Positions 6,328 through 64,000 of a stretch of 64,000 nt of DNA are shown here, in pieces (position 1 is the first letter of the stretch; each line of letters starts with the position of its first letter). The translations under genes and the position numbers were made by a program. Source of the DNA: Kangiella sp. TOML190 (lineage in GTDB: Bacteria > Pseudomonadota > Gammaproteobacteria > Enterobacterales > Kangiellaceae); the NCBI RefSeq assembly GCF_023706045.1, contig NZ_BQYL01000001.1, forward strand, positions 1,240,001 through 1,304,000, in the 5' to 3' direction. The notes under the pieces are model-generated. The model worked only from the letters and a program-made list of their open reading frames with translations. It was not told the origin of the DNA and made no database searches.

Positions 6328-8139
6328 TCAATTATTCTGCCGCTTAGAAAGCAATAAAAGTTGTTGAAACTCGGCTTTTTCGGCAGCGGACAAACCCTCT
6401 TGGCTGGATTTTTGCTGCAAATGATCTAACCTTTGAGTTCGAGCTTCTTGTAACAATGCCTTAAAGCAATCCGCGATTTCTTGCGCTTCATTGCCACGAA
6501 TACGCTCTTCGCGCTCCGTTATGGCAAGCTCCGCTAGGCGCTGATAAAGCTTATCGTCACGCCAAAATTCCAGTAGGGCGCCACTGCTTAAGGTGGGGTT
6601 TTTGTGAATGATTTCAAGCAGTCGATGGAGAATCTTTGGGCCGGCTTGCTCAAGACTCAACAACCAATCAAACTGCTCAACAGCGAGCCCTAATTTAGGG
6701 CTTTGCAATAACAAAGTTATCGCTAACTGTATGCTTTTATTGATTTTTTTTCGACCACTTGCCGTTTTTTGATGTGGGTTAGTAGCATTTTGCGATTGAT
6801 TCGCAGCGCTTTTGTTGGTCGTTGTAGCGACCTGCTGCGGCGAGCCGAGTAGGCTTTCCAGCTTATCGCTATCCAGACCGCTGGTTTGTGCCAAAGCTTG
6901 GGAAAACAATTCCAAATAAATCGGATCGGTGATTTTTTCTAAATAGGGTTTGGCCAGATGCACCAATTGACCACGTCCTGAAACCGACTCCAGATCCACT
7001 TGGTCGCTTAAAAACTTGAGTAAAAAGTCGAAAATCGGCTGGGCAGCCTGAACCAATTGGTTAAATTGCTCTTGACCTACCTTGCGCACCATAGAATCCG
7101 GATCTTCACCATCAGGTAGGAACATCAACTTAATCTCACGACCTTCGCGTAATTGCGGCAAGCCATGCTCTAAGGCTTTCAGGGCGGCAGCACGACCAGC
7201 TTTGTCGCCATCGAAGCATAGGACTAGCTCGCGACTGGTGCGAAATAATTGCTGCAAGTGACTCGCGGTGGTGGCGGTGCCGAGGGTCGCCACCGCATTG
7301 GTAATCCCAAATTGAGCCAAAGCCACTACATCCATATAGCCTTCGACGATTAAAATTCGCGATAAATTTCGGTTGGCTTGACGCGCTTGATAAAGACCAT
7401 AAAGCTCATTGGATTTATGAAAAATAGGCGTTTCAGGCGAGTTTAAATACTTCGGTTCACCATCACCCATAACGCGGCCACCAAAAGCAATCACTCGCCC
7501 ACGTTTGTCTTTAATTGGAAACATGATCCGATCGCGAAACCGATCGTACACTCGCGAGCTGTCGCCTTCTTTTTGGATCAACATACCACAGTCGATTAAT
7601 TGCTGTTTAAGCTTAGGGTTGTTACTAAAGTTGCCAAATAGTTTTTCTAATGAGTCCCAAGCGTCAGGCACATAACCCAAGCCAAATTGTTTTGCGATTT
7701 CACCACTTAACCCCCTGTTTTTTAAGTAGTTTACCGCCTTTTGGCCATTGCTTGTTCGCAGCTGTTGCTGATAGAAGTTAGCGGTTTTAGCCATTAAATC
7801 ATACAATGAATTATCGATCTTAGGACGATTGTCATGGCCTTCTTCGCGCGGCACTTCAAGACCTAAACTGGATGCCAGTTCTTCTACTGCATCGGGAAAC
7901 TCTAAGCGGTCATACTCCATTAAAAAACTAATCGCATTGCCATTCATGCCGCAACCGAAACAATGATAAAACTGTTTGGTCTGGCTAACGTTAAATGAAG
8001 GTGTTTTTTCGCCATGAAAAGGACAGCAGGCTTTGTAATTAGCGCCAGCTTTTTTTAGTGGCACGCGCGAGTCGATCAGATCGACAATATCAATCCGGTT
8101 GAGCAAATCTTGAATAAAGTGTTGAGGGATTAAGCCCAT
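6328..8139 (-). CDS. dnaG: DNA primase DnaG
   Basis: This enzyme synthesises RNA primers for chromosome replication. The 603 residues show an N-terminal CHC2 zinc ribbon (CCPFHGEKTPSFNV followed by YHCFGCG) and the catalytic core. The TOPRIM domain has its invariant glutamate in ILIVEGYMDVVAL and its acidic pair in LVLCFDGDKAGRAA. The C-terminal helicase-binding domain follows. All catalytic residues are intact, which makes this protein a useful in-window reference for the two degenerate TOPRIM proteins at 58630-60228. It sits between yqeY and rpoD in the macromolecular synthesis operon. Confidence 0.97.
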   Translation of the reverse strand: MGLIPQHFIQDLLNRIDIVDLIDSRVPLKKAGANYKACCPFHGEKTPSFNVSQTKQFYHCFGCGMNGNAISFLMEYDRLEFPDAVEELASSLGLEVPREEGHDNRPKIDNSLYDLMAKTANFYQQQLRTSNGQKAVNYLKNRGLSGEIAKQFGLGYVPDAWDSLEKLFGNFSNNPKLKQQLIDCGMLIQKEGDSSRVYDRFRDRIMFPIKDKRGRVIAFGGRVMGDGEPKYLNSPETPIFHKSNELYGLYQARQANRNLSRILIVEGYMDVVALAQFGITNAVATLGTATTASHLQQLFRTSRELVLCFDGDKAGRAAALKALEHGLPQLREGREIKLMFLPDGEDPDSMVRKVGQEQFNQLVQAAQPIFDFLLKFLSDQVDLESVSGRGQLVHLAKPYLEKITDPIYLELFSQALAQTSGLDSDKLESLLGSPQQVATTTNKSAANQSQNATNPHQKTASGRKKINKSIQLAITLLLQSPKLGLAVEQFDWLLSLEQAGPKILHRLLEIIHKNPTLSSGALLEFWRDDKLYQRLAELAITEREERIRGNEAQEIADCFKALLQEARTQRLDHLQQKSSQEGLSAAEKAEFQQLLLLSKRQNN

Positions 8140-50506: not shown

Positions 50507-52909
50507 ATGAAAGCGAAATTTTCATTAGGGTTTTTGCCATTAATGGCAGTGATATTATGCTTATTGGCAGAAACGGCTACGGCCAAAAGTTGGGCTGATA
50601 TTGAAGCCAAGAGCCGTAAAGTGAATGGTTTCATGCCCTATTATTTGAGCAAAAGCCAAGGCAAAGTCTGGTTGGAAGTCAGCAATTTTAATCAACCGTT
50701 TATTTATTACAGTGGCTTGCCTTATGGCATTGGCTCGAATGATATTGGGCTTGATCGAGGACAGCTTGGACAGAGTCGTTTGGTGCAGTTTGAGCGCTAT
50801 GGCAATAAGGTTTTGCTCAAACAACTTAACACCGACTATCGGGCCGATACCGATAATAAGGCGGAAAAGAATTCGATTGCCCAAGCATTTGCCAGTTCGG
50901 TATTGGCTGGGTTTGAAGTACAAGCAAGCCGTTCCAATAAGGTATTAATTGAATTAACGCAGTATTTATTAAAAGATTTGCATGGCGTTTCTGCGCGTCT
51001 TAAAGCGCGTAAGCAAGGGACTTATTCAGTGGATACTTCGCGTTCGGCGTTAGTTACTGAAAAAGTTAAAAACTTCCCCAGAAACATCATTTTTGAAAGT
51101 TTATTGACCTTTAAGGGTAGTGGCGCTGGCGAGTTTGTACGCCAAGTAACCCCCTCGCCGAATGAGATTACCGTACAGCAACATTTGTCGTTCGTTGCTT
51201 TGCCCGATGATGCTTATCAGCCACGCGCTTTTCATCCCCACTCAGGTTTTTTTGAACTTTCGTATAAAGACTACGCCACTCCGATCACCGCGCCCATTGA
51301 TAAGAAATTAATTTATCGTCACCGCATAGAGCGCAACCAAGAGGGTAAGATAAAGCCGATTGTGTATTATCTCGATCCGGGTGTGCCTGAGCCTGTGCGA
51401 GGCGCTTTGTTGGATGGCGCTCGTTGGTGGCAACAAGCCTTTGACGCGATTGGCCTAGAAGGCGCTTATCAAGTGGAGATGTTGCCTGAAGATGCCGATC
51501 CTTTGGATGTACGTTACAACGTGATCCAGTGGGTGCATCGTGCAACGCGCGGCTGGTCTTACGGTTTTTCGGTTTCAGATCCGCGCACCGGTGAAATCCT
51601 CAAAGGTCATGTCACCTTGGGTTCGCTTCGGGTACGCCAGGATTTACTAATAGCTAACGCCCTGACCGCGATCTATGGCGGTGAGAATGCGGACGCAAAA
51701 TCCAAAGCTGCTAAGGAAATGGCGTTAGCGCGAATTCGCCAGTTATCGGCGCACGAAGTAGGGCACACGCTCGGGATCGCGCATAATTTTGCAGCTAGTC
51801 CCGATAACCGCGCGTCTGTGATGGACTACCCGCATCCATTGGCGGAGTTCATTGATGGCCAGATCAGCCTTGAAAATGCCTATGCCAAAGGAATTGGCAA
51901 GTGGGATATCGAGACGGTGCGCTACGGTTATTCTGAGTTTGCTGATAAAGCTGCGGAACAAGCAGGTCTGGCTAAGATCGTCAAAGATATGCAAGCGCAA
52001 GGCTTAGGTTTTATTTCCGATCCCGACGCCCGTCCCCAAGGCGGTGCTCACCCTGTAGCCCATCTTTGGGATAATGGTCAAGATCCGGCGCAAGAACTAA
52101 CCCGAGTATTGGCCATCCGCGTTAAAGCACTAGAAAACTTTGGTCATCATAATCTAGCCAAAGGAATGCCTTATTCCGAGCTGGCGGAAACGTTGGTTCC
52201 TTTGTACTTATTCCATCGTTATCAAACCGAGGCAGCGGTGAAATTAGTTGGTGGCGTGGAGTACGAATACAGCGTTAAAGGCGATAGTTTTAAACCAGTG
52301 GCGTTTGTTGAAAAGAGCACGCAAGAAGCGGCGTTACAAGCCTTGCTGAGCAGTTTGTCATTAGAGGTATTGCAAGTTCCAGAGTCGATTTTAAGCCTGA
52401 TCCCGCCCAAGGCGTATGGTTATTATCGCAACCGAGAAAGCTTTCCGAGTAAAACGGGTTTAACGCTCGATCCGGTATCTATGGCCGATACTGCCGCGCA
52501 GCATAGCTTAACTTTGCTGTTGAATCCGCAACGTCTGGCGCGTCTGTTACAACAAAAAGCGATGGATCCAGAGCAATTGGGCTTAAGTGAAACGATTAAC
52601 CAGTTGTTGGATGCGACTTTAATGGCAAATCAGCAACAAGGCTTGAATGGTTTAATTCAACAGCGGCTGGATTATTTAACGCTAAGTCAAATGATCAAAA
52701 CTGCTGAATCTGCCCAAGCTTCTCCAGAGGTCAAAGCACACCTTTATAACGAGCTAGGGAAAATTAATGGTTGGCTACAAACCCAAGCTAATCGCAATCC
52801 AGTGCGTTTTATGTGGCTAAAAGCTTTAATGGAAAAATACTTTAATGGCGACTTAACCATCGAAACCTTACCTAAAGTAACTATGCCGCCAGGTTCGCCG
52901 ATTGGTTAA
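50507..52909 (+). CDS. DUF5117-type zinc-dependent metalloprotease, exported
   Basis: This 800-residue protein has a signal peptide (1-26, ending ATA-KS) and a metzincin-like zinc site [18 protein letters not shown] (HExxHxxGxxHN). It is followed by SVMDYPHPL, the Met-turn. This is the architecture of DUF5117/DUF5118 proteases. It follows the M14 gene with a short spacer and ends at a strong terminator, so the two genes form a proteolysis operon. Confidence 0.88.
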
Positions 52910-54541: not shown

Positions 54542-55198
54542 TTATTCTAAATTCACTGTAAAGGTTAGTGACGGGTGTAATCCTACTTCAGCTTGAGATA
54601 TAAGCTCATCCCAGTTCTTACCTAAATAGCTACGCTGAAAAGCAATTGGGAGTGTTCCGACTTTATTTTTTAAGCATTGATACTCTAGTCTACTAGCTAT
54701 TTCACAAGTTCTTTCAACCAAGATTCCATCTAATAAACTACTTCTCATTATTTTCGTTAACTGCTTGTCTTTATTGATTACTTTTCCATCTTTGTTTTTT
54801 AAGCTCTCCTTTATCTTACCAACTACAAAGTTAAAAGTAGATGGGTCAGCACTCAAGTCATAAACAACTTTATTTATACGCTCATATTCGTTTTCTTCCA
54901 AAAACTGCAATATTGCATAAAATGCCTCTTCATAAATATTAAGACTTGGTTCGCCACTTTTATTAATAGTTTCTGCACCTGAGCCATTGTTAAATTGAAG
55001 AATCCACTTGTTTGCCAATTTTAAGTTTTTATATGTAATGCTCCTTATCTCATTTCCAGAGGACCCTACTACATGGATTTTATAACTATCCTTGTCTGTT
55101 TTATTTATTGTTACCTTGTAATCCTTATCCTGGTTAGCACATGCAGATGTACTGACCAGAAGGGTTAATAAAATAAATATTATTTTCAAATTTTTCAT
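54542..55198 (-). CDS. Lipoprotein, putative immunity protein to the Tae4-like toxin
   Basis: This 218-residue protein is counted from ATG 55198 (GAGG six bases upstream; the upstream TTG is less likely). It has a lipoprotein signal peptide (LLVSTSAC). The mature protein is charged, with no recognised domain and several cysteines (ERTCEIASRLEYQCLKN). It starts 20 bases after the stop of the RHS-Tae4 tip and ends at a terminator, the standard place for an immunity gene. Periplasmic or outer-membrane placement suits neutralising a peptidoglycan amidase. It does not resemble the small Tai4 immunity proteins I know, so the role is inferred from position. Confidence 0.6.
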   Translation of the reverse strand: MKNLKIIFILLTLLVSTSACANQDKDYKVTINKTDKDSYKIHVVGSSGNEIRSITYKNLKLANKWILQFNNGSGAETINKSGEPSLNIYEEAFYAILQFLEENEYERINKVVYDLSADPSTFNFVVGKIKESLKNKDGKVINKDKQLTKIMRSSLLDGILVERTCEIASRLEYQCLKNKVGTLPIAFQRSYLGKNWDELISQAEVGLHPSLTFTVNLE

Positions 55199-55218
55199 TG
55201 TTTGCCTCAAGTTTTAAT

Positions 55219-55860
55219 CTAGCAAGAACAACCGCCACTGGTCGGTAAAAACCAAACATCGCCAGTCCAAACATAATTATCCATATGTGAAGCAGAAATG
55301 ACAGCTGTATGTCCACTTGAAGATACAATGGCTGCTCCGCCCGATCTACTTACAATAAATGATGCTCGTAAAGCCTCAGCTCCACCATTTCCATTTAACG
55401 ACATAGCTGGCGCCCCATAAGTATCTCGAAGATACCTATTCATATTTGAGGCACTAATAATATATCTGCCATCAGACCCACCTTGATTTCGGTTTGTCTG
55501 ATGTGCTGGACTTGATGGTATTTCAGCTCCGCTATTATTTAAGGCATGGCTTACTCTTGCTGCACAGGAGTCTTCCGCTCCATTTTCAGAACCTCTTCCA
55601 TAAGCATCATTAAGTGAGCCGCCTATTAAGTCCCATACATCACCACTTGATTGATAATCATTATAGTCAGGATAGTTACTCATAAACGTTTGCGAGTTCG
55701 GTAAACAAGCACATAGTCCCATAGGGTCGAATAATCTAACAGGATTCGCACCAACATATGCATAAGTATTAACTCCAGCAGCCAATCCAATCGGATCAGA
55801 TTGAATGTATCGCCCCGTGCTTGGGTCGTAATCCCTAAAGTAGTTATAAACTAATTGCAT
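55219..55860 (-). pseudogene. RHS C-terminal tip with Tae4-like amidase toxin, core missing
   Basis: The 213 residues begin inside the RHS core ([22 protein letters not shown], then [19 protein letters not shown]), the conserved end where polymorphic toxins attach. The variable domain resembles Tae4 peptidoglycan amidases, which cut gamma-D-Glu-mDAP bonds. It has WDLIGG, the catalytic cysteine in [14 protein letters not shown] (Cys99), [20 protein letters not shown], and a probable catalytic histidine in SSGHTAVIS (His184). The RHS core and any secretion signals upstream of 55860 are absent; in-frame stops lie just before the ATG. It may be an orphan tip available for recombination, or the remnant of an element insertion. 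Confidence 0.78.
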
Positions 55861-55861
55861 T

Positions 55862-55875
55862 TACGACCCATACTA
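55862..55875 (+). repeat. Left terminal inverted repeat candidate
   Basis: TACGAC, CC, A, TACTA reading inward. It matches 63411-63425 in inverted orientation with one mismatch and one gap. Confidence 0.5.
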
Positions 55876-55904
55876 TCCGACATAGTTAACAACCACCACT
55901 ACCA

Positions 55905-56807
55905 TTATTCCAAGCCCAATATCTTAGTGAGTTCTTCTAACTGATACTGGTACTGGCTCAAATCTTTATTTTTAAATTTTTGCAGGTTTAATAACTTCCA
56001 TTTTATAGATGGAAAATCTTTAAAATCATAATGGCTCCAATCTGGTTCTAGTTGATTGAAGATTAAAATAAACTGCTTGTCCAGTTCTGTAAGAGTAGCA
56101 TTAACCAATTCAATTAACTCTTCTCTTGTGTTCTCATAATCTTGATAACTAAAATCAATTTCACTCATGCCTACAAACTGTTGCTCAAAAGCTGAGGTTT
56201 GATCTTGTCGATTAGGGTTAAGGAGCTCATGAGTTGGGCGATTACTACACAATAAACTAAATATAAAACCTTGCTTGATCTGATCATTAATAGCTTCATT
56301 GTCTAGCATGAGCCGAACGTCAAATAAATCTCTCGGATGCTGTCTATCTAATGCCGCACAAATCTTTCCGCCATAAAGCTGCCCAGTTGGAACTACAGGC
56401 ATAATGCAAAATGAGTCAAACTTATCTTGAGCTTCCTCACATAACTGAAGCTGTTGTGGCTCTCCCAATAAACCTCGCCCAACCATATTAACTTCAACTT
56501 TAATGGATACCCCAGCTTTTTCGATATGCAATTTACCTTTACGAGAATCATGCTGGACATCAATCGTAGGATTAAGCAAATTAATTCTTGCCTGTATGCG
56601 TGATAAACCTTCATTCATTCCAACTAAAAACTCATCGCGCTCGACTAGATCAACAAAGGTTAAATCGATATCAACGGATAACCTTGGCAAGTCTCTCACA
56701 AATAAATTAATTGCAGTACCACCGTGCATGACAAACGATTCTTCCTTTGCCACCTCAGGTAGTACTTCCAATAACAGTTGTACTTGATTTTTATAAACTG
56801 GGATCAT
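55905..56807 (-). CDS. abiEii: AbiEii-family nucleotidyltransferase toxin
   Basis: This is a 300-residue DUF1814 protein, the toxin half of a type IV toxin-antitoxin/abortive-infection pair. The nucleotidyltransferase signature is intact: MHGGTAINLF near residue 28, then LSVDIDLTF near 43, with the catalytic acidic pair. GKICAALDRQHPRDLFDVRLML follows in the centre. Members use nucleotides as cofactor and arrest growth, and some modify tRNA. The start overlaps the antitoxin stop by four bases. It ends about 30 bases from the proposed left end of the element. Confidence 0.88.
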   Translation of the reverse strand: MIPVYKNQVQLLLEVLPEVAKEESFVMHGGTAINLFVRDLPRLSVDIDLTFVDLVERDEFLVGMNEGLSRIQARINLLNPTIDVQHDSRKGKLHIEKAGVSIKVEVNMVGRGLLGEPQQLQLCEEAQDKFDSFCIMPVVPTGQLYGGKICAALDRQHPRDLFDVRLMLDNEAINDQIKQGFIFSLLCSNRPTHELLNPNRQDQTSAFEQQFVGMSEIDFSYQDYENTREELIELVNATLTELDKQFILIFNQLEPDWSHYDFKDFPSIKWKLLNLQKFKNKDLSQYQYQLEELTKILGLE

Positions 56808-57574
56808 GATAATCCTTCTAACTCTTTAGGTACCACTAGCTGGTAATCTGATATGTAAGTACCGTCAGAAACAATACTACGTTTTCCTTTTCCCAAATCT
56901 ACTTTGTCTAAATTGATTAACGGTAACCAACTGTGTCTAGCTTTATCGGCCATATATAGAAATAAGCGCTTCACTTTAACCGAAGTACAATTTTCTAAAA
57001 GCTCTTGAACGGTTTTAGGCCTTAAATTATTCAAGCCTTCCATTAACTCATAAACCTCTAACAATGGCTGACTCTTTGGAGCCAAATACAAGCATTCCAT
57101 TATCGCCCTAGCAGGATTGGAAACTTTTACTTCAAAATTCCTACTTTCATAATTAACAAGGCCTAAATCAGGTGGCAAAAAATCCGTATATTTACAACTC
57201 CATTTTATTGGCCAATCATACTTTTTATACCAGGCTGGTAATTTTTCGTTTCGCGTACTGAACAATTGCACTCGTTTAGGTGCTAGCTCCAAATAATGAG
57301 ACTTCCCAAGCAAAGCTAGAGCCGTTTTTGCCGCAGGATGTACCGATAAACCCAACTGAGACTGAAGCGCATAGATGCCCCCTAGATAACCCACACTATC
57401 GCCATGGCGTATGTGAGCCCCTCTACCTATGGAGCTTAACCAATTATTTTTCACATACTTCCGCAGCAAATCATAGCTGTAGCCGTGCTCGGACAACCAA
57501 GCAGAGGTTAAAACCACTCCCGCAGGTTGCAAGTTAAGCAATTGGTTTATTTTTGTTTCATTTACAGTACTCAT
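56804..57574 (-). CDS. abiEi: AbiEi-family antitoxin / transcriptional repressor
   Basis: This 256-residue protein has an N-terminal winged-helix region (GVVLTSAWLSEHGYSYDLLRKYVKNNWLSSIGRGAHIR, about 18-57) and an AbiEi C-terminal domain (KVSNPARAIMECLYLAPKSQ). Some AbiEi proteins bind two inverted repeats in their own promoter. Two matching sites, GTACT-NNN-AGTAC, occur here, one over the start codon and one 72 bases upstream. No Shine-Dalgarno sequence precedes the ATG, and the best -10 lies only seven bases upstream, so the mRNA may be leaderless. Confidence 0.85.
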   Translation of the reverse strand: MSTVNETKINQLLNLQPAGVVLTSAWLSEHGYSYDLLRKYVKNNWLSSIGRGAHIRHGDSVGYLGGIYALQSQLGLSVHPAAKTALALLGKSHYLELAPKRVQLFSTRNEKLPAWYKKYDWPIKWSCKYTDFLPPDLGLVNYESRNFEVKVSNPARAIMECLYLAPKSQPLLEVYELMEGLNNLRPKTVQELLENCTSVKVKRLFLYMADKARHSWLPLINLDKVDLGKGKRSIVSDGTYISDYQLVVPKELEGLS

Positions 57575-57579
57575 AGTAC
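57567..57579. promoter_or_regulatory. Candidate AbiEi operator 1, over the start codon
   Basis: GTACT and AGTAC around CAT, where CAT is the complement of the abiEi start codon. It has the same half-sites and 3-base spacer as the site at 57639-57651. Confidence 0.5.
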
Positions 57580-57581
57580 GG

Positions 57582-57609
57582 ATATTACATCATTTTTAAA
57601 CCAAATCAA
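57582..57609 (-). promoter_or_regulatory. Candidate abiE promoter
   Basis: Reading left: TTGATT (57604-57609), a 16-base spacer, then TAATAT (57582-57587). The -10 ends seven bases before the ATG, which would give a leaderless or nearly leaderless transcript. Confidence 0.4.
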
Positions 57610-57633
57610 GTTTGAAGTTTAATTTTGAACGTG

Positions 57634-57656
57634 TTAGCGTACTATAAGTACGCTAA
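57634..57656. promoter_or_regulatory. Candidate AbiEi operator 2, 23-bp perfect palindrome
   Basis: Ten-base arms TTAGCGTACT and AGTACGCTAA surround ATA. It lies between the recombinase stop and the abiE promoter. It contains the same GTACT-NNN-AGTAC core as operator 1, centred 72 bases away (close to seven helical turns). Confidence 0.6.
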
Positions 57657-57665
57657 TCCATACAT

Positions 57666-58625
57666 TTATAAACCTTGTCTGGGAGCGCTATTGGCTGCTG
57701 GATGATACTGGTTATAAGCCTTACTTAAGTCTTTAGCGGTTAAGTGGGTATAGATTTGAGTGCTTTTCATATCTTGGTGTCCCAAAAGCTCTTGAACAAA
57801 GCGAGTGTCAGCACCGCCGCGTACCATATGTGTGGCGGTAGCGTGTCTGAAGATATGACAAGCTCCTTGCTTACCAATCCCTGAGCGAGCAACATAGTAA
57901 CTCGCCAGCTCAGTAAGCGCCGACAGCTTTAATGGTTTACCGTTATGGCCTAATAGCAACGCATCACCTGAATCAATATTGGCAAGTTTTGGCCGTAGTT
58001 CCTTTAAATATTTTTTAAGCCAAAATTTTACTCTTTCAGCTAATGGAGCAACTCGATCCAAGGAACCTTTACCTTTACGGATAATGACTAAATTATTTTT
58101 AAAGTCGAGGTGATTCACTTGCACCCTGGCAACCTCACAACGCCTCATGCCTGTCCCATACAAGAACTCTAAATAAGCACGATCTCTGAGCATCATGGCT
58201 CCAGCCGTTTCAGTTTGCTTAAAAATCAGCTCAATCTCTTCAAAATCGGGTATATCTTTGGGAAACTTCTGCGGAACTTTAGGCAGAGTAAATTTCTTAT
58301 AGAAGGTTGAGTCCATCAACTCATAATGATCTAAGAATTTCAAAAAGCCCGTAACGGCCATCAATCGCAGTCGCTGAGTCGAAAGCTGCAAAGGCTTACC
58401 ATCAGGCTTACGGTAGCGATATAAATGCTTACGAAAGTTTTCAAGAACCTCAATCGATAAATCACCAATAACGCTTATGTTTTGAGAGCTACACCAGTTG
58501 ATAAAAAGATTCAGTGCTCTCTCCTTCGTATAAGCCGTTTGATCTGATAAACCTTTCGCGAGCACATCTTCAATATGATGAGGCACAAGCTCTGCTAATG
58601 TTTTAATTCTTTGTAGGTTAGTCAT
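57666..58625 (-). CDS. Tyrosine recombinase (Xer/integrase type)
   Basis: This 319-residue site-specific recombinase has a SAM-like N-terminal core-binding domain (about 10-105) and a complete catalytic domain. Visible catalytic residues are Arg161 in GTGMRRCEVARVQ, a beta-hairpin lysine in RKGKGS, HIFRH (His257, Arg260), His283 in LLGHQDMKS, and Tyr292 in QIYTHLT. It is the last gene of the istAB operon, starting four bases after the TOPRIM-like gene, with GGAG in the preceding stop region. It may resolve cointegrates or integrate/excise the element. Its target site is not evident. Confidence 0.92.
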   Translation of the reverse strand: MTNLQRIKTLAELVPHHIEDVLAKGLSDQTAYTKERALNLFINWCSSQNISVIGDLSIEVLENFRKHLYRYRKPDGKPLQLSTQRLRLMAVTGFLKFLDHYELMDSTFYKKFTLPKVPQKFPKDIPDFEEIELIFKQTETAGAMMLRDRAYLEFLYGTGMRRCEVARVQVNHLDFKNNLVIIRKGKGSLDRVAPLAERVKFWLKKYLKELRPKLANIDSGDALLLGHNGKPLKLSALTELASYYVARSGIGKQGACHIFRHATATHMVRGGADTRFVQELLGHQDMKSTQIYTHLTAKDLSKAYNQYHPAANSAPRQGL

Positions 58626-58629
58626 CGCG

Positions 58630-59463
58630 TTACTCCAGAATGTAAGGTTGAGAAAGAGACTGCATTAATCCCTTGTATGGGTTAGAAAGCGTTAATGCGT
58701 AATCAGAAGTCGCAAGGCCTTGTGGGGATATCAATATTTTAGTTTCAATACCAAGATTGGTATTCAATCGAATAATTTTGCGAGAATAAACAAGCGCTTC
58801 TCGGCTACCGCCAAAAGCCAGTAATACTTTATTGATATGGTATGAATCAAAGATAAGCGCATGTTGGTTGAGATAGTTTCTGGCTCCCATCAAAGCAATA
58901 ACGTTTGAGAAGCCATGGCATAACCACACCAACGCATCCAACGGATTCTTACATAAAATAATCTCGCTATGGTGATTTAAAGCGCCAAGATTAAAAAAGG
59001 TCGTTGCATCGGTTAGCCAATGAACATGATAAGGCGTACCCGAACGCAGCTTAGGACAAATACGCCGACCATAGGCACCGACAATTTGTTCGTCCAGACT
59101 ATAAAATGGCACAGTAATAGCGCCCCGAAGTACTTCATGTCCCGATGATTTAATCAAACCCACTCGTTGCATAGAGCCACGAAAGGCTTGTTCATCCCAC
59201 TTCGATAAGGCTCTCAATTTTTTACCTAAACTTCTATCGCAATAACCAATCCCCAATTGATCCAATAACTCTAAGTTTTTAATCCCCCTAGCAAAAAGAA
59301 ACTGTTGGGCTTTATCGCTACTCAAAAAACGTTCTTGGTAATAGTTAAATGTTTCTTGAGTAGCGCGCTCATCCTTTGATATTCCAACAAACTGGCTCTC
59401 TATAAACACTGGCAAGCTTCTTGAAATATCAACGGTATTGGATGAACGGGTTAGTTGCTTCAT
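58630..59463 (-). CDS. DnaG-like protein with degenerate TOPRIM domain, second copy
   Basis: This 277-residue protein follows the DnaG catalytic-core layout: YYQERFLSSDKAQQFLFARGI, LGIGYCDRS, VLRGAITVPFYSLDEQIVGAYGRR (DnaG: RIMFPIKDKRGRVIAFGGR), then a TOPRIM-like fold. Where DnaG has IVEGYMD it has LCKNPLD (Lys172 in place of the catalytic Glu). Where DnaG has CFDGDKAG it has AFGGSREA, so both acidic metal sites are gone. There is no zinc ribbon. It is paralogous to the upstream gene. Priming activity is unlikely; a structural or DNA-binding role in transposition is plausible. Confidence 0.75.
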   Translation of the reverse strand: MKQLTRSSNTVDISRSLPVFIESQFVGISKDERATQETFNYYQERFLSSDKAQQFLFARGIKNLELLDQLGIGYCDRSLGKKLRALSKWDEQAFRGSMQRVGLIKSSGHEVLRGAITVPFYSLDEQIVGAYGRRICPKLRSGTPYHVHWLTDATTFFNLGALNHHSEIILCKNPLDALVWLCHGFSNVIALMGARNYLNQHALIFDSYHINKVLLAFGGSREALVYSRKIIRLNTNLGIETKILISPQGLATSDYALTLSNPYKGLMQSLSQPYILE

Positions 59464-59472
59464 AAAAAGCTC

Positions 59473-60228
59473 TTAAGCATTGAAGTAAAAAGCACAATCG
59501 ATATTTAGAAGCCTCATAGCTTCTGTGATTTGATCTGCCCAATACTGCCCGTAACGATCACCATTAGAGATAATGCGAATGGATTGAGTCGGCATATGCT
59601 TGAAGAGCTGACGAAACTGCTCCACCGTATCACCGTTGCCCATAGCAGCAATGACATTTTCATGACCACGCTCAATCAACTGGCAAGCAATCACAGGGTT
59701 CTGACATACAATTAAGTCAGAAAAGGCGTTAAACGCATCCAAGTTAAATACGCCTACTGCATCTTGGTTCCACAACCGCAATAAGTCAGACTCAACGCCT
59801 TCCTTTGGCTCTAGCCAATAACCATAAACCCCAACAGGGATATAATAGATCCCATTGTATAGGGGAAATATCATGCATCCCTCAAGTACTTCTTGCTTAG
59901 TACTATCTAATAGCCCTAAACGACCGAGTGAGGCGCTAATAGGAGTCAGATCTTCTCCTCGATATCTAGAGTAGCGTCTTAAAAAACTGTTATCGGCATA
60001 ACCCAAATGAAACTGCTCAATCAGATCATAATTTGAAAGCTCAAAAGCCTTAAGCTTTTCGGTAGCGTCCAAGTCTTGGGCTAACATCAAATGTTGCTCC
60101 TCGACATACTCATTACCGATTGTTTGATCTAGCCGAGAAACCCCTTGCTGCTGCCTTAGAATGTCACCAGACTCGCTGCAAATGGGCGTGTAGTAGCTGT
60201 TACCGCTTTCACTGTTTAAAACCATCAT
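59473..60228 (-). CDS. DnaG-like protein with degenerate TOPRIM domain, first copy
   Basis: This 251-residue paralogue of the next gene shares FHLGYADNSFLRRY, RLGLLDSTKQEVLEGCMIFPLYN (against RVGLIKSSGHEVLRGAITVPFYS) and a TOPRIM-like C-terminal half. The catalytic glutamate position reads VCQNPVI (Gln176). The FDGD position reads SNGD (221-224), so the metal-binding set is incomplete. There is no zinc ribbon. A good Shine-Dalgarno (AGGAG) follows the istB stop, 11 bases before the ATG. Recognised by comparison with the DnaG protein in this window. Confidence 0.7.
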   Translation of the reverse strand: MMVLNSESGNSYYTPICSESGDILRQQQGVSRLDQTIGNEYVEEQHLMLAQDLDATEKLKAFELSNYDLIEQFHLGYADNSFLRRYSRYRGEDLTPISASLGRLGLLDSTKQEVLEGCMIFPLYNGIYYIPVGVYGYWLEPKEGVESDLLRLWNQDAVGVFNLDAFNAFSDLIVCQNPVIACQLIERGHENVIAAMGNGDTVEQFRQLFKHMPTQSIRIISNGDRYGQYWADQITEAMRLLNIDCAFYFNA

Positions 60229-60239
60229 AATAATCTCCT

Positions 60240-60974
60240 TTAGTGTTTAGTATCTCGGCGCATTGACTCACCTTGAATCTCAATAATATGTGCTTTATGA
60301 ATTAGTCGATCGAGAATGGCGTCTGCAATTGCTGGATCGCCAATGTATTGATGCCATTTTTCAACTGGCATTTGACTAGTAATTAAGATTGAGCCCGTCC
60401 CTGTTTTATCTTCAATAATTTCCAGCAAGTCTCTACGGCTTGGGGCTGTTAATTTGGCAAGGCCAAAATCATCAATTATAAGAATGGGGAAGCGGGCTAT
60501 TTTTTTGCGATACTGTAAAGACTCGCCTTCATTTCTGGCTTGCTCAAGCTCATCAATGAGTGTCGATAAGCGCTTAAATGCGACTCGATAACCTTGTTTG
60601 ATAGCTTCAATGCCAAGCCAAGAAACAATATGAGTTTTACCTACGCCAGTAAGACCTATAACCACCACGTTCTGATGAAACTTAACCCATTCGCATAGAG
60701 CTAAAGGCAGCAAAACATTACGATCTAAATTACGTCTACTATCAAAAATAATGTTTTCCGTAACCGCTGTGGTGTATTTGATTTTGGATGCTTTTAAGTC
60801 GCGCTCAAATTTAGTGCGCTTGCGATGCACCAGCTCAGCTTCAAGCAATTGAAATATCACCTCATTAGTAGGTATGCGATGATAGTCAGGAGAGCGAACT
60901 AACAACTTATAGTGCTCTTTGGCGGCAGGCATCTTTGCTTCTGCGAACTGTGCTTCAATGTCATTAGAGTTCAT
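60240..60974 (-). CDS. istB: IstB-like AAA+ ATPase, transposition helper
   Basis: This 244-residue AAA+ protein is of the IstB/DnaC class. An N-terminal helical region is followed by Walker A GLTGVGKTH (107-115), Walker B ILIIDDFG (164-171), sensor region SILITSQMPVEKWHQYIGD, and arginine-rich LDRLIHKAHIIEIQGESMRR. In IS21, IstB multimers bind target DNA and recruit IstA. The start overlaps the istA stop in a TAATG junction, with GGAGG inside istA. All ATPase motifs are intact. Confidence 0.92.
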   Translation of the reverse strand: MNSNDIEAQFAEAKMPAAKEHYKLLVRSPDYHRIPTNEVIFQLLEAELVHRKRTKFERDLKASKIKYTTAVTENIIFDSRRNLDRNVLLPLALCEWVKFHQNVVVIGLTGVGKTHIVSWLGIEAIKQGYRVAFKRLSTLIDELEQARNEGESLQYRKKIARFPILIIDDFGLAKLTAPSRRDLLEIIEDKTGTGSILITSQMPVEKWHQYIGDPAIADAILDRLIHKAHIIEIQGESMRRDTKH

Positions 60975-62518
60975 TAATGTAACCCTCCGTTTGTATAGGC
61001 CTCAGCTCCTCGAATATTGTCATGCTGAGGAATAAAGTCATCGTCTCGCTCATCGAGCCATGGCTTAGTTTTCATAAGGCGCTCAATATTAGTGGCAAAC
61101 AATGGTCGAGACTTTTTCAAAGAGAATTGGCAAGCTAGTTCAAAATCGTTTTTGTCAGAGCTGCTCTCATAAAGCTTTCTTAAATAGCTGCAAGCATCAC
61201 GGGGGATTTTTGAGTAGTCCTGATAGCCGTCAAAATGTTGATTGACGACTTGAGTGGTGTATTTGCCAACACCCAATGCCCACTCAAGATAGTCTTGCTT
61301 GAGATACCCATAGATCTGATGATTTACAGGTTGATGCTTCTTATTCATCGTAAAGTCACCTTTGACTGAACTACGTTTGTGCGATGCTACGCACAAGCCT
61401 TTGTGGTAAAACTCAACCTTTTTATGATTGTATTTGGTTTCCACATACTCGTTCCGAAGCGTGTAAGGAACTGAGTAGTCGTGACCTTCAACTCGCAGTA
61501 AGAATTGTCTAGGGACTTTGCGCTCTGGGATCCACTCGAAGTATTCGAACAACTGCTCAGGAGTTGGTCTTAGCATGGGTCTATCAAACTCCTCAAACAG
61601 CTCACGGCGAGACATACCGCCTTTAAATGGCATGTTATTCACTACTTCCAAAAGAACTCTTATCGCATCGTTGATTTCCTCGATGTTATAGAAAGTTCTT
61701 GATCGAAGTTTGTAGATAATTTTATAAGTAACCTTTTTGACGGCGGCCTCAGCGCAAGCATTGTCTTGTGGGTGCCCAGCACGAGCAGGAATAATGACGC
61801 TATTACAATGAGCAGCCCATTCTGCGTAAATTCGATTTACCTTAGCTGGGTATTTACCTTTTGCTCTATCAATAGCAGGTCGAAGGTTATCGCAAGTCAC
61901 GACCTCACTAACGCCACCATAATATTTGATCATTTCATTATGAACGGCTATCCAAACGCTGCGTTTTTGACTGGGACAAGCCTCCATATAGATCAAGCAT
62001 GATATGCCTATTGCCGACACAAACACCTGAGCATAATGCTTCTTGTTTGTTTTTCTATCAAAGTAAGGGATCGTTAAGCCCGCAAAATCCACATTGGTTA
62101 TTTCGCCTGGATAACGGCGGATCTTCATTGAGATGTCATTCTTAACTTTGTAGAGTCGATAGTAGTAAGTGAAGCTACTAAAGGAATAGGCCGTCGCTGG
62201 GTCTTCATCATAGTAGGCTTCCCAAATATTTCTTTGGTTAGCTCCTTTGTTTCTAAGTTCGACTTCGACTTTTTTATAGTCTGCCATCCGCTTACTAAGG
62301 TCACGCTCACGCTTTTTTATGAAAAGAGCTTTTCTATCGTCATGGTTCAGCAGTTTTAACTGTAACCAAGAGTATTTTTGGGCAATGATAATCTTACGGT
62401 ACCGACCAACAGTGTTATGAGAGTAACCCGATAGTTCACCAATTTTTCGGTTCGACAAATTAGTATCGCAAATCAATCGAAGCATTAATTCATGGTCGTG
62501 TAATTTACTCCGAACCAT
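60974..62518 (-). CDS. istA: IstA-like DDE transposase (IS21-related)
   Basis: This 514-residue transposase has an N-terminal helix-turn-helix (about 12-42, LSNRKIGELSGYSHNTVGRY) and a second DNA-binding part. The RNase H-like core has the catalytic triad visible as Asp144 (NVDFAGL), Asp210 (VTCDNLRPAI) and Glu257 (DNACAEAAVKKV). A C-terminal beta domain (RVEGHDYSVPYTLRNEYVETKYN) follows. The ATG lies 14 bases inside the stop end of the upstream HTH gene, suggesting translational coupling. The triad is intact, so activity is plausible. Confidence 0.92.
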   Translation of the reverse strand: MVRSKLHDHELMLRLICDTNLSNRKIGELSGYSHNTVGRYRKIIIAQKYSWLQLKLLNHDDRKALFIKKRERDLSKRMADYKKVEVELRNKGANQRNIWEAYYDEDPATAYSFSSFTYYYRLYKVKNDISMKIRRYPGEITNVDFAGLTIPYFDRKTNKKHYAQVFVSAIGISCLIYMEACPSQKRSVWIAVHNEMIKYYGGVSEVVTCDNLRPAIDRAKGKYPAKVNRIYAEWAAHCNSVIIPARAGHPQDNACAEAAVKKVTYKIIYKLRSRTFYNIEEINDAIRVLLEVVNNMPFKGGMSRRELFEEFDRPMLRPTPEQLFEYFEWIPERKVPRQFLLRVEGHDYSVPYTLRNEYVETKYNHKKVEFYHKGLCVASHKRSSVKGDFTMNKKHQPVNHQIYGYLKQDYLEWALGVGKYTTQVVNQHFDGYQDYSKIPRDACSYLRKLYESSSDKNDFELACQFSLKKSRPLFATNIERLMKTKPWLDERDDDFIPQHDNIRGAEAYTNGGLH

Positions 62519-62894
62519 TTTTTAACTCTCTTTGATATTCACTTACAAAATGACTAAATGAGATGGCCGTCTTAGGGTATTTGTCATGATAAGTTTCCCA
62601 TAGCCTTCTTAAGCTGGTATTACTATTTTTTAGGTCTTCTTTGATCTGCTCAAAGTTAGGGAGGCGCTTAAAAATACTCTTTGCCCGTCTCTTACTAAAA
62701 AGCGCTTGTATCTCGTTACGACTCATTGATTTTAAATAAGACCAGGAGTACTTTTTGTCAGTGATAATTTTTCTGTATAGACCAACTGTTCGATTAGAAC
62801 AGCCCGACATCGCGCCAATTTTTCTATTAGACCAATTGGTTGAGCAGATTAATTCTGCAATTATTTTAGAAACGCATGATTTTTTTCGATTCAT
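62505..62894 (-). CDS. Stand-alone paralogue of the IstA N-terminal DNA-binding region
   Basis: This 129-residue protein matches the first 125 residues of the adjacent IstA in the same register. WSNRKIGAMSGCSNRTVG pairs with LSNRKIGELSGYSHNTVG, and YRKII...KYSW, KKRxR, LRxLWExYxDxxP and SFSxF follow. By eye, 21 of 31 residues are identical over residues 21-51. It lacks a catalytic core. It overlaps istA by 14 bases. It is not a broken istA 5' end, because IstA has its own complete N-terminus. It could bind the same ends as a regulator or accessory factor. Confidence 0.82.
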   Translation of the reverse strand: MNRKKSCVSKIIAELICSTNWSNRKIGAMSGCSNRTVGLYRKIITDKKYSWSYLKSMSRNEIQALFSKRRAKSIFKRLPNFEQIKEDLKNSNTSLRRLWETYHDKYPKTAISFSHFVSEYQRELKNGSE

Positions 62895-63109
62895 TTTTGC
62901 TATCTCTCCGTTATACGAGTTATCAGCAGCTATAACTAGCCGCTACAAACTCAAGTTTTTTAGGGTGAGAGATAGCCTTCAACCAACTTGACAGGGTATC
63001 TAGTGATATGGAAAGATAGAAATGTCTGGGGCGAACCTAAGACAAATCTGATTAGCCGCATTGAACCACATATTCAAAGCGGCTTTTCCTTATCTGGGAC
63101 TCACCTAGT
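62895..63109. promoter_or_regulatory. Control region upstream of the HTH-istAB operon
   Basis: These 215 bases have no gene. They contain a 10-base inverted repeat (GCTATCTCTC at 62899-62908 and GAGAGATAGC at 62967-62976). Nested between these is AGTTAT...ATAACT. A GC-rich hairpin (AGCCGC...GCGGCT, 63054-63084) lies behind the excisionase-like gene. The inner copy of the long repeat overlaps the HTH gene ribosome site (GGAGAG). This suggests autoregulation or an mRNA structure blocking initiation. No convincing -35/-10 pair was found. Confidence 0.45.
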
Positions 63110-63340
63110 TCATTCTGCTGTTAACCTCTGTTTAAATAACCACTGGGCTACATCTTTTGCTAAAGCAAACTTGCCACGACGGTTTTCGATATTAAAAATT
63201 TTTATGGGCACCTTCTTTCGACTAATAGCCTGTCTAAATGCCCCCATCGTCTTAAAACCTAATAATGCTGATAAGTCTTCATTACCAATGACATATCCAT
63301 GAAGTTTAATTATGTCTTTTTCGATATCTTTTGCTGTCAT
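63110..63340 (-). CDS. Excisionase-like small DNA-binding protein
   Basis: This 76-residue protein is counted from the ATG at 63340, chosen because GGAG lies nine bases upstream and the 20 residues before it look unlike coding sequence. The sequence IKLHGYVIGNEDLSALLGFKTMGAFRQAISRKKVPIKIFNIENRRGKFALAKDVAQWL-type shows a MerR/excisionase-like winged helix: helix, turn, helix (LSALLGFKTMGAFRQAI), then a basic wing (ENRRGKFALAKD). It is the first gene of the element and would be a natural directionality factor for the tyrosine recombinase. Confidence 0.65.
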   Translation of the reverse strand: MTAKDIEKDIIKLHGYVIGNEDLSALLGFKTMGAFRQAISRKKVPIKIFNIENRRGKFALAKDVAQWLFKQRLTAE

Positions 63341-63410
63341 TAGCAATACTCCACACAACATTAAAATTCGGAAAACGTGACTTGATAGTATAAAAAACAA
63401 TCAACGTTTG

Positions 63411-63425
63411 TAGTACGGTGTCGTA
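63411..63425 (-). repeat. Right terminal inverted repeat candidate
   Basis: TACGAC, A, CC, G, TACTA on the minus strand reading inward. It pairs with 55862-55875. Confidence 0.5.
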
Positions 63426-63463: not shown

Positions 63464-64000
63464 ATGGAAAATCAAGAGCTTATACACGGCGATGTTACTC
63501 CAAAGGATGGAGAGTGCAGATTTACAGAGCTTGAGAGGGTTGAAAAATTTAAAATTAAACTTTGGGTGGAATACCTAAAAGAAGCATTAAACTATAAATC
63601 TATTTATGCTCTACAAAAACACTTTTCTGGTGACGATAAATTCATACATAAAACAGAAGGCACAACTCACCCAACAGATTGGAATAAGTACTTTAACGGT
63701 ACTAGAATTCCTTCACTAAAAACCTTGGATAAGGCGTACAAAGAAGTTCCATCATCTGAATATATCTACAACATGCCTTTTTGGAGATTAGTAACGGAGA
63801 GAGTTAGTAAAGAGTACATCAATGACGCTCTATCAGCGACGAGCCCTGATATTAAGAAAATTTTATTCAACCCTACTGGAATTAGTGGACTAGACTGGAA
63901 AAGAAAAGATTTAAGAAAAAATGATCGTATACGTTTATTTTTGAGGCGTAAGGGTACCATTGATGCTTTGAATGTGATCATGTTGCTTATGGCGGAAGAT
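63464..64000 (+). CDS. Hypothetical protein, 3' end outside window
   Basis: The frame is open from the ATG at 63464 to the last base, giving 179 codons without a stop. The translation begins MENQELIHGDVTPKDGECRF. It contains aromatic, lysine-rich sequence (LWVEYLKEALNYKSIYALQKHFSG, DWNKYFNGTRIPSLKTLDKAYKEVPSSEYIYNMPFW), soluble in character. The middle (ALQKHF...WNKYFNGTRIPSLKTLDKAY) resembles a helix-turn-helix of the kind that selects operators, but I do not recognise a family. It lies just outside the proposed right end of the mobile element. No Shine-Dalgarno is evident. Confidence 0.6.
   Translation, partial: MENQELIHGDVTPKDGECRFTELERVEKFKIKLWVEYLKEALNYKSIYALQKHFSGDDKFIHKTEGTTHPTDWNKYFNGTRIPSLKTLDKAYKEVPSSEYIYNMPFWRLVTERVSKEYINDALSATSPDIKKILFNPTGISGLDWKRKDLRKNDRIRLFLRRKGTIDALNVIMLLMAED

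Follow-up and report, generated by a model that had tools for sequence, protein, structure and literature searches.

Insertion sequences of the IS21 family carry IstA, a transposase with a DDE triad, and its helper ATPase IstB in overlapping genes, and the Tn5053/Tn402 transposons (tniABQR) unite a DDE transposase and an ATPase with TniQ and a site-specific recombinase, a serine resolvase. A different kind of rearrangement is seen in RHS genes with C-terminal displacement arrays, where the main RHS gene, its toxin tip and the immunity gene are followed in line by orphan tips. In the available parts of PMC5361080 and PMC5727410, tip change and the gain of orphan tips in RHS and other polymorphic-toxin genes are ascribed to homologous or illegitimate recombination. 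The accessible text of PMC5361080 finds no evidence for an integrase and draws an analogy between effector arrays and integrons; that of PMC5727410 notes integrase-like genes near rhs and leaves their role open. In this study, a stretch of 64,000 nucleotides of Kangiella sp. TOML190 (contig NZ_BQYL01000001.1, positions 1,240,001 to 1,304,000; hereafter the window) was analysed. Between positions 55862 and 63425 it contains an element in which istA and istB are followed by two genes for DnaG-like pseudo-Toprim proteins and by a tyrosine recombinase gene. We propose that this gene set is probably what makes an integrative toxin-tip cassette mobile, and that its recombinase would integrate circular cassettes at the core of RHS genes and thereby swap their toxic tips.

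The window element is referred to as copy 1, and its genes lie on the minus strand. The istA gene (60974-62518) was recognised by family profile and alignment (transpos_IS21, 161 bits at a cut-off of 160), and the residues D144, D210 and E257 of its DDE triad are unchanged in 19 of 19 aligned IstA proteins. The AAA+ ATPase gene istB (60240-60974) matched the family profiles IstB_IS21 (E-value 1.4e-59) and IS21 helper ATPase IstB (219 bits). The tyrosine recombinase gene (57666-58625) was placed by profiles, tree and alignment; the protein matched Phage_integrase with an E-value of 4.6e-37, and its R161, K186, R260, H283 and Y292 are unchanged in 31 of 31 aligned rows. The His of the HxxR motif is kept in the window recombinase and is replaced by Asn in copy 3, a further module of this genome, and in locus L028. 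The original prediction of an intact DDE triad in IstA, of an IstB and of a full catalytic set (Arg, Lys, HxxR, His, Tyr) in the recombinase is thus confirmed. The two DnaG-like genes occupy 59473-60228 (protein 1) and 58630-59463 (protein 2), and a helix-turn-helix (HTH) gene precedes istA (62505-62894). The HTH gene overlaps istA by 14 bp and istA overlaps istB by 1 bp, and the following spacers are 11, 9 and 4 bp. Seven close-packed leftward genes had been described; the description holds for the six from the HTH gene to the recombinase gene (62894 down to 57666) and fails for an excisionase-like gene, which lies 215 bp upstream of the HTH gene. An ordinary IS21 was ruled out as the identity of the unit, which also carries the pseudo-Toprim and tyrosine recombinase genes beyond istA and istB. 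Tn5053/Tn402 resembles it in joining a DDE transposase, an ATPase and a site-specific recombinase in one unit; neither tniQ nor a serine resolvase was found among the open reading frames (ORFs) of the window and their family matches.

The module or its Toprim-recombinase part was found at 14 distinct loci, IstAB being seen in 12 of them and the complete order istA-istB-Toprim-recombinase in 11. The genome of the window has three modules (copies 1 to 3), which account for all three of its IS21 IstA genes; a solitary IS21 is absent from it. Two genomes of the same genus, G026 and G024, have one module each (L028 and L029), and L059 lies in a genome of the same order. Plasmids carry it as well, namely the Pseudomonas aeruginosa plasmid pPUV-9 and two further plasmids (L097) and an Alteromonas plasmid (L098). 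Four more modules were found in Pseudomonas and Oleiphilaceae genomes (L117-L120), the contig of L120 stopping within the pseudo-Toprim gene. The Toprim-recombinase part stands without adjacent istAB in G005, a Kangiellaceae metagenome-assembled genome (contigs L025, which is identical to the Kangiellaceae contig L116, and L073), where other genes lie upstream of the Toprim gene, and in a Marinobacterium locus (L121), where another transposase fragment precedes it. No published description of the element was recognised in a search at the level of titles and abstracts, most subscription papers being beyond its reach.

In a recombinase tree of 31 rows, the 12 rows of the IS21-associated branch formed one clade (support 99/98), which includes G005; L120 and L121 were not entered in the tree. 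Outside the clade stood 17 rows of a CHC2-type sister group, and the host XerC/XerD proteins were separate. The window recombinase scored 297 bits with the XerC-like family NF002331 (PRK01287), under the curated cut-off of 371; 10 of the 15 recombinase places from the search of the class genomes exceeded this cut-off, none of them in the IS21 clade. In the IstA tree, the 11 module proteins fell on one side of a branch and eight ordinary IstA proteins on the other (92/91); the module IstB proteins were not resolved as one clade in the IstB tree. Pairwise identities of IstA, IstB, pseudo-Toprim protein and recombinase co-vary across 11 loci (r 0.69-0.95). The gene set is therefore a real, recurring mobile module, in support of the earlier reading of one unit that joins an IstAB pair to a tyrosine recombinase, and this combination of enzymes in one recurring unit is unusual. 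The IstA and recombinase trees are discordant in part. In the IstA tree, copies 1 and 2 fall with L029 and copy 3, and L028 falls with the Pseudomonas loci; in the recombinase tree, it is copies 1 and 2 that fall with the Pseudomonas loci. The two halves of the module, IstAB and Toprim-recombinase, thus appear to have reassorted, although three branches of the IstA tree were flagged by the program as long.

The right end of the module is tied to RHS toxin genes. An orphan RHS tip was found downstream of the recombinase gene on the same strand, 58-4018 bp from the recombinase stop in the loci measured by RHS-core profile and DNA alignment. In 11 of the 14 loci the core of the orphan tip begins at one homologous RHS-core codon, the encoded start being YNYFRDYDP in copies 1 and 2, L073, L097, L117, L118 and L121, HMNGR.YD in copy 3, L028 and L029, and YMQARYYDP in L059. 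The first homologous base was set by DNA alignment to an RHS gene in seven loci (copies 1-3, L028, L029, L059 and L073), L029 being aligned to the RHS genes of L028 and copy 3; for L097, L117, L118 and L121 the breakpoint rests on the shared right-end motif and the encoded core. This motif, TTAGTTTAy/AACTACTT, occurs in 7 of the 14 loci of the IS21 branch and in the CHC2-type contig L066, and is conserved in the YNYFRDYDP group. In copy 1, the candidate recombination site and right end lie at 55823-55869 on the minus strand, with the left arm GGGTCGTAA at 55861-55869 and TTAGTTTAT/AACTACTTTAGGGATTACGACCC at 55823-55854. The RHS-core homology starts at 55849, just beyond the edge of the region originally noted, and the displaced RHS-core fragment with its Tae4-like toxin tip extends over 55219-55849 of the minus strand (ORF 55219-55860; profiles and DNA alignment). 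Furthermore, the element end of copies 1 and 2 contains an inverted copy of the RHS arm (GGGTCGTAA compared with TTACGACCC), and five modules (copies 1-3, L028 and L029) lie between direct copies of the site, of which the second is upstream in a longer RHS core. The right end coincides with an exact breakpoint within RHS toxin genes, and this argues for a site-specific integration by which tips are swapped.

A sister type of element gives before-and-after views of such a locus. It combines a recombinase related to that of the module with an HTH regulator and a CHC2/Toprim/P-loop protein of about 1000 amino acids, which is related to the DnaG-like proteins and keeps the catalytic Glu, and it differs from the module in having no IstAB. 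Sister elements stand behind RHS tips in some cases, behind an invasin-like gene in L099 and behind a haemagglutinin-type gene in L100. In L100 (1-14665), on a P. aeruginosa plasmid, a haemagglutinin TpsA2 gene precedes the CHC2-recombinase unit, the first part of which is then repeated in nearly identical form; the repeat runs into an IS66-type element. Of 5426 Escherichia coli genomes, 53 have the recombinase gene, which occupies 186 chromosomal places in them, and, as with the IS21-type module, the unit follows a toxin tip and its immunity gene. In the five sites compared, four in E. coli chromosomes and one in the Shigella record, its end falls on one RHS-core base (GTACCGGATCGTCCCGAT/GACCCGATAGGG, with small variants); the E. 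coli site uses other RHS-core codons than the IS21-type site.

Two natural E. coli pairs of occupied and empty loci were obtained. Strain CREC-2 has an insertion of 16.6 kb at a locus that lacks it in Ec-U9-1, in which the RHS gene is continuous with the tip that is orphaned in CREC-2; the right flanks are 99.8% identical over 4881 bp from the exact break and the left flanks 99.4% over 5330 bp. Likewise, JNE120442, with 7.9 kb inserted, and the empty 21F61 are identical at 7942 of 7942 bp on the right from the exact break and 99.2% identical over 4041 bp on the left. In the search with the CREC-2 tip, 3 of the 60 matches listed (of 122 records) start exactly at the break, and one of these is MEI003, in which a second, shorter RHS gene carries the tip; with the JNE120442 tip, 1 of the 40 matches listed (of 59 records) starts at the break and spans the tip. 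The sister-type pairs therefore show an exact insertion in the RHS core, by which a new tip was brought and the old one displaced. The comparison of occupied and empty sites, first suggested for close relatives of the window element, gave two E. coli pairs for the sister type and no pair in the genus for the IS21 type. Moreover, an 8758-bp circular Shigella record (L101) holds one sister-type unit and an 11,289-bp circular Lonsdalea record (L103) one unit and part of a second. These records fit excised cassettes; no circular record was seen for the IS21 type.

In the proposed mechanism, the recombinase would act on two copies of one site and recombine them; one copy lies in the 3' portion of the RHS core, in the codons that immediately precede the R.YDP..GR motif, and the other on a circular cassette. 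Besides a core remnant and the new toxin tip with its immunity gene, the cassette would contain the excisionase-like gene, istAB, the genes for one or two pseudo-Toprim proteins and for the recombinase, a toxin-antitoxin or defence cargo and the right end. By integration the RHS gene would gain a new toxic end, and the old tip with its immunity gene would be pushed downstream as an orphan; excision would reverse these steps. The pseudo-Toprim protein is probably a DNA-binding accessory, and IstA and IstB probably provide a second mode of movement, the transposition of the whole unit to new places. The arrangement of main RHS gene, tip, immunity gene and orphan tips in line is that of the published displacement arrays; the published mechanism, however, is homologous or illegitimate recombination, and the breakpoint and recombinase of the module argue for a site-specific exchange. 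Integrons also use a tyrosine recombinase, add cassettes at one site and displace older ones. They differ in that the cassette of the module carries its own recombinase and the site lies within a coding sequence; an integron integrase was ruled out by the TIGR02249 score of the window recombinase, 118.9 bits against a cut-off of 265. No attC array was noticed in the module, no search aimed at attC having been made. If the proposed mechanism is true, tip swapping would explain how bacteria build reserves of spare toxin ends. The recombinase clade, the exact site and the before-and-after E. coli loci of the sister type make the question of an integrase directly testable.

As an alternative, the module may be an IS21-type transposon with a built-in tyrosine resolvase, comparable to Tn5053/Tn402, in which IstAB would make cointegrates, the recombinase would resolve them at an internal site and RHS loci would merely be preferred targets. 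We regard this as rather unlikely. It draws on pPUV-9, where the module lies inside a 24,684-bp insertion that is absent from pPUV-4. The insertion has the ends 5'-TGTAGGG...CCCTACA-3' with subterminal repeats and a target duplication of 6 bp (AGGGGG), or of 8 bp (CAAGGGGG) when counted from the alignment, and istA is its only annotated transposase gene, the gene table of the plasmid being incomplete. The TG...CA ends and the short target duplication are IS21-like, and this one case, taken as a lead, fits IS21-type transposition of the entire unit, tip included. However, no convincing pair of IS21-type terminal repeats was found around the window copies (in a 36-kb region of their own) or in L024, L028, L029 and L059. 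In an anchored search allowing up to six mismatches, the pPUV-9 end motif was found in the loci searched only at both ends of the pPUV-9 unit; it was not found in the L117-L120 stretches, which may stop short of the ends. A shorter repeat motif also occurs once in L119. Furthermore, related recombinases work in the sister elements without IstAB, and the site of the module sits at the exact RHS breakpoint and not just within the element. For these reasons the earlier suggestion of an IS21-centred pathway, transposition followed by resolution, is not upheld. The other earlier suggestion, that of two modes of movement, survives as a possibility through pPUV-9, no such ends having been found around the window copies.

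Several observations weigh against site-specific tip swapping by the recombinase. For the IS21 type, an empty site was not found: the orphan tip of copy 1 is absent from 19 other genomes of the genus, and the tip of copy 3 has there only a partial match of 49% in one genome. No RHS main gene lies upstream in the stretches read of L097, L118 and L059, and the tip there has no delivery gene to which it is joined; in L098, an RHS gene is present upstream and the stretch read contains no orphan tip. In L119 the right-end motif is accompanied by only a decayed RHS fragment, and the contig of L120 ends too early for an RHS tip. At 10 of the 15 recombinase places outside the IS21 clade, no RHS-core match was present on the contig, which is often short, and the genomes G337 and G168, which carry a related recombinase, have no RHS-core match at all. 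For the sister type, the search with a third E. coli tip listed 40 matches of 56 records, and none of these 40 was an empty locus. The E. coli orphan at L104:6101 shares its first base with the others but is not preceded by the usual right end of the element, and other E. coli orphans have longer cores. The circular records could also be tandem units falsely assembled as circles. Finally, RecA deletion between the core repeats of 77-80 bp could be the source of the empty E. coli loci; such deletion does not account for the position of the conserved right end, directly next to the same base in all five sites compared.

Some of these observations also favour a second alternative, namely that RHS tip arrays arise by homologous or illegitimate recombination (C-terminal displacement) and that the recombinase modules are passengers gathered in hot spots. 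It agrees with the view of RHS and effector arrays given in the available parts of PMC5361080 and PMC5727410, and with the orphans that have no module or have longer cores. Nevertheless, we consider it improbable, since breakpoints lie at the same base or homologous codon beside conserved element ends in several lineages and with different tips. Moreover, few genomes have a recombinase of this family (11 of 369 in the class at an E-value of 1e-80), yet an RHS-core match adjoins 7 of the 7 surveyed places of the IS21 clade on the same contig, compared with 5 of the 15 others. The chance that all three modules of this genome lie within 4 kb of a same-strand RHS core was roughly estimated as 3e-7, a figure that ignores RHS arrays as possible general hot spots. 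A chance neighbourhood of an ordinary IS21 and an unrelated integrase operon, the refuting case considered in the original prediction, can be dismissed as virtually impossible and is refuted by the conserved co-occurrence in many genomes, with the gene order complete in 11 loci, co-varying sequences and no solitary IS21 in this genome.

Site-specific tip swapping may extend beyond the module. It is tentatively suggested that a widespread class of mobile elements in polymorphic-toxin genes uses a tyrosine recombinase with a primase-like partner to integrate circular cassettes into a conserved core, replacing the toxic C-terminus and its immunity gene and building arrays of spare tips. Such a class may serve several delivery systems, as the haemagglutinin-type and invasin-like genes would indicate, and its IS21 branch would have gained a DDE transposase for jumps to plasmids and new loci.

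The DnaG-like proteins have a primase fold without the catalytic residues, associated with a recombination system. The dnaG profile matched protein 2 over residues 34-250 with an E-value of 6.7e-06 and protein 1 with only 0.073. The structure model of protein 2 (pLDDT 75.6, from seven aligned sequences) had DnaG RNA-polymerase domains as its best PDB matches (E-value 2.9e-13, TM 0.70). The catalytic Glu is Gln and the first Asp of DxD is Asn in protein 1; in protein 2 the Glu is Lys and DxD is lost. In 12 of the 14 short proteins of the alignment, the Glu is replaced by K, Q, S or A and the first Asp is missing, the second Asp being retained in some; in the other two, L059 and L098, the entire Toprim part is absent. 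The Glu motif, ILCES or VLCES, is present in all six CHC2-type proteins and DxD in five of them, L071 having NRD instead. An active primase is ruled out by the loss of the Toprim Glu and of the first Asp of DxD, and the short proteins look like decayed relatives of the CHC2/Toprim protein rather than primases. No relative of the pseudo-Toprim protein was found in the viral contigs searched, nor in an initial scan of genome contigs with a single pseudo-Toprim protein as the query.

The excisionase-like gene of copy 1, a small DNA-binding gene taken from the ORF list, spans 63110-63400 on the minus strand, with an ATG start at 63343. Of the 13 other loci, 8 have a relative at the corresponding position (copy 2, L028, L029, L097, L117, L118, L119 and L120; 42-76% identity), and none was found in copy 3, L059 or L098. 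The L028 relative had a weak match to PyocinActivator PrtN (E-value 0.0021), below the cut-off. The product of the HTH gene is 44% identical to residues 9-127 of IstA, of which it is an N-terminal paralogue, and within this genome it was found in copy 1 only. On the plus strand, a divergent gene for a protein of 326 amino acids flanks the upstream side of the element (63464-64000, continuing to genome position 1304444). It had no Pfam or NCBIfam match; relatives lie in the same place in copy 2 (28%) and L028 (36%). L097, L118, L119 and L120, of Pseudomonas and Oleiphilaceae, also have a divergent gene there; these genes are related to each other and show no detectable kinship to that of copy 1.

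A Pfam-level family search revealed a cargo pair of AbiEi antitoxin (56804-57574) and AbiEii toxin (55905-56807) on the minus strand, which lies within the coordinates of the element and was absent from the original account of its genes. Toxin-antitoxin-like cargo differs among modules, and includes, for example, a Fic gene in L097. The cargo of copy 3 is a DUF1778-like/GNAT-like pair (L024:12783-13549), TacAT-like by eye, and that of copy 2 a KAP-family P-loop NTPase of 1119 amino acids, weakly QatA-like (L022:11560-14919). Between copy 1 and an RHS tip, at G000:C1 1304993-1308284 (L022:4993-8284), DNA-glycosylase-like, nitroreductase-like, QueC-like and PfkB/deoxyribosyltransferase-like genes were recognised by reading their sequences, and this four-gene cluster looks like a defence or nucleoside-modification system. 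At the junction of copy 1 (55849-55860), the end of the element provides an ATG that is in the reading frame of the orphan RHS tip (MQLVYNYF...) and may allow the tip to be translated on its own. The tip is followed on the minus strand by its putative immunity gene (54542-55210), lipoprotein-like and assigned by position. Further along the window, at 50507-52909, a large predicted protein is metalloprotease-like by its motif as judged by eye.

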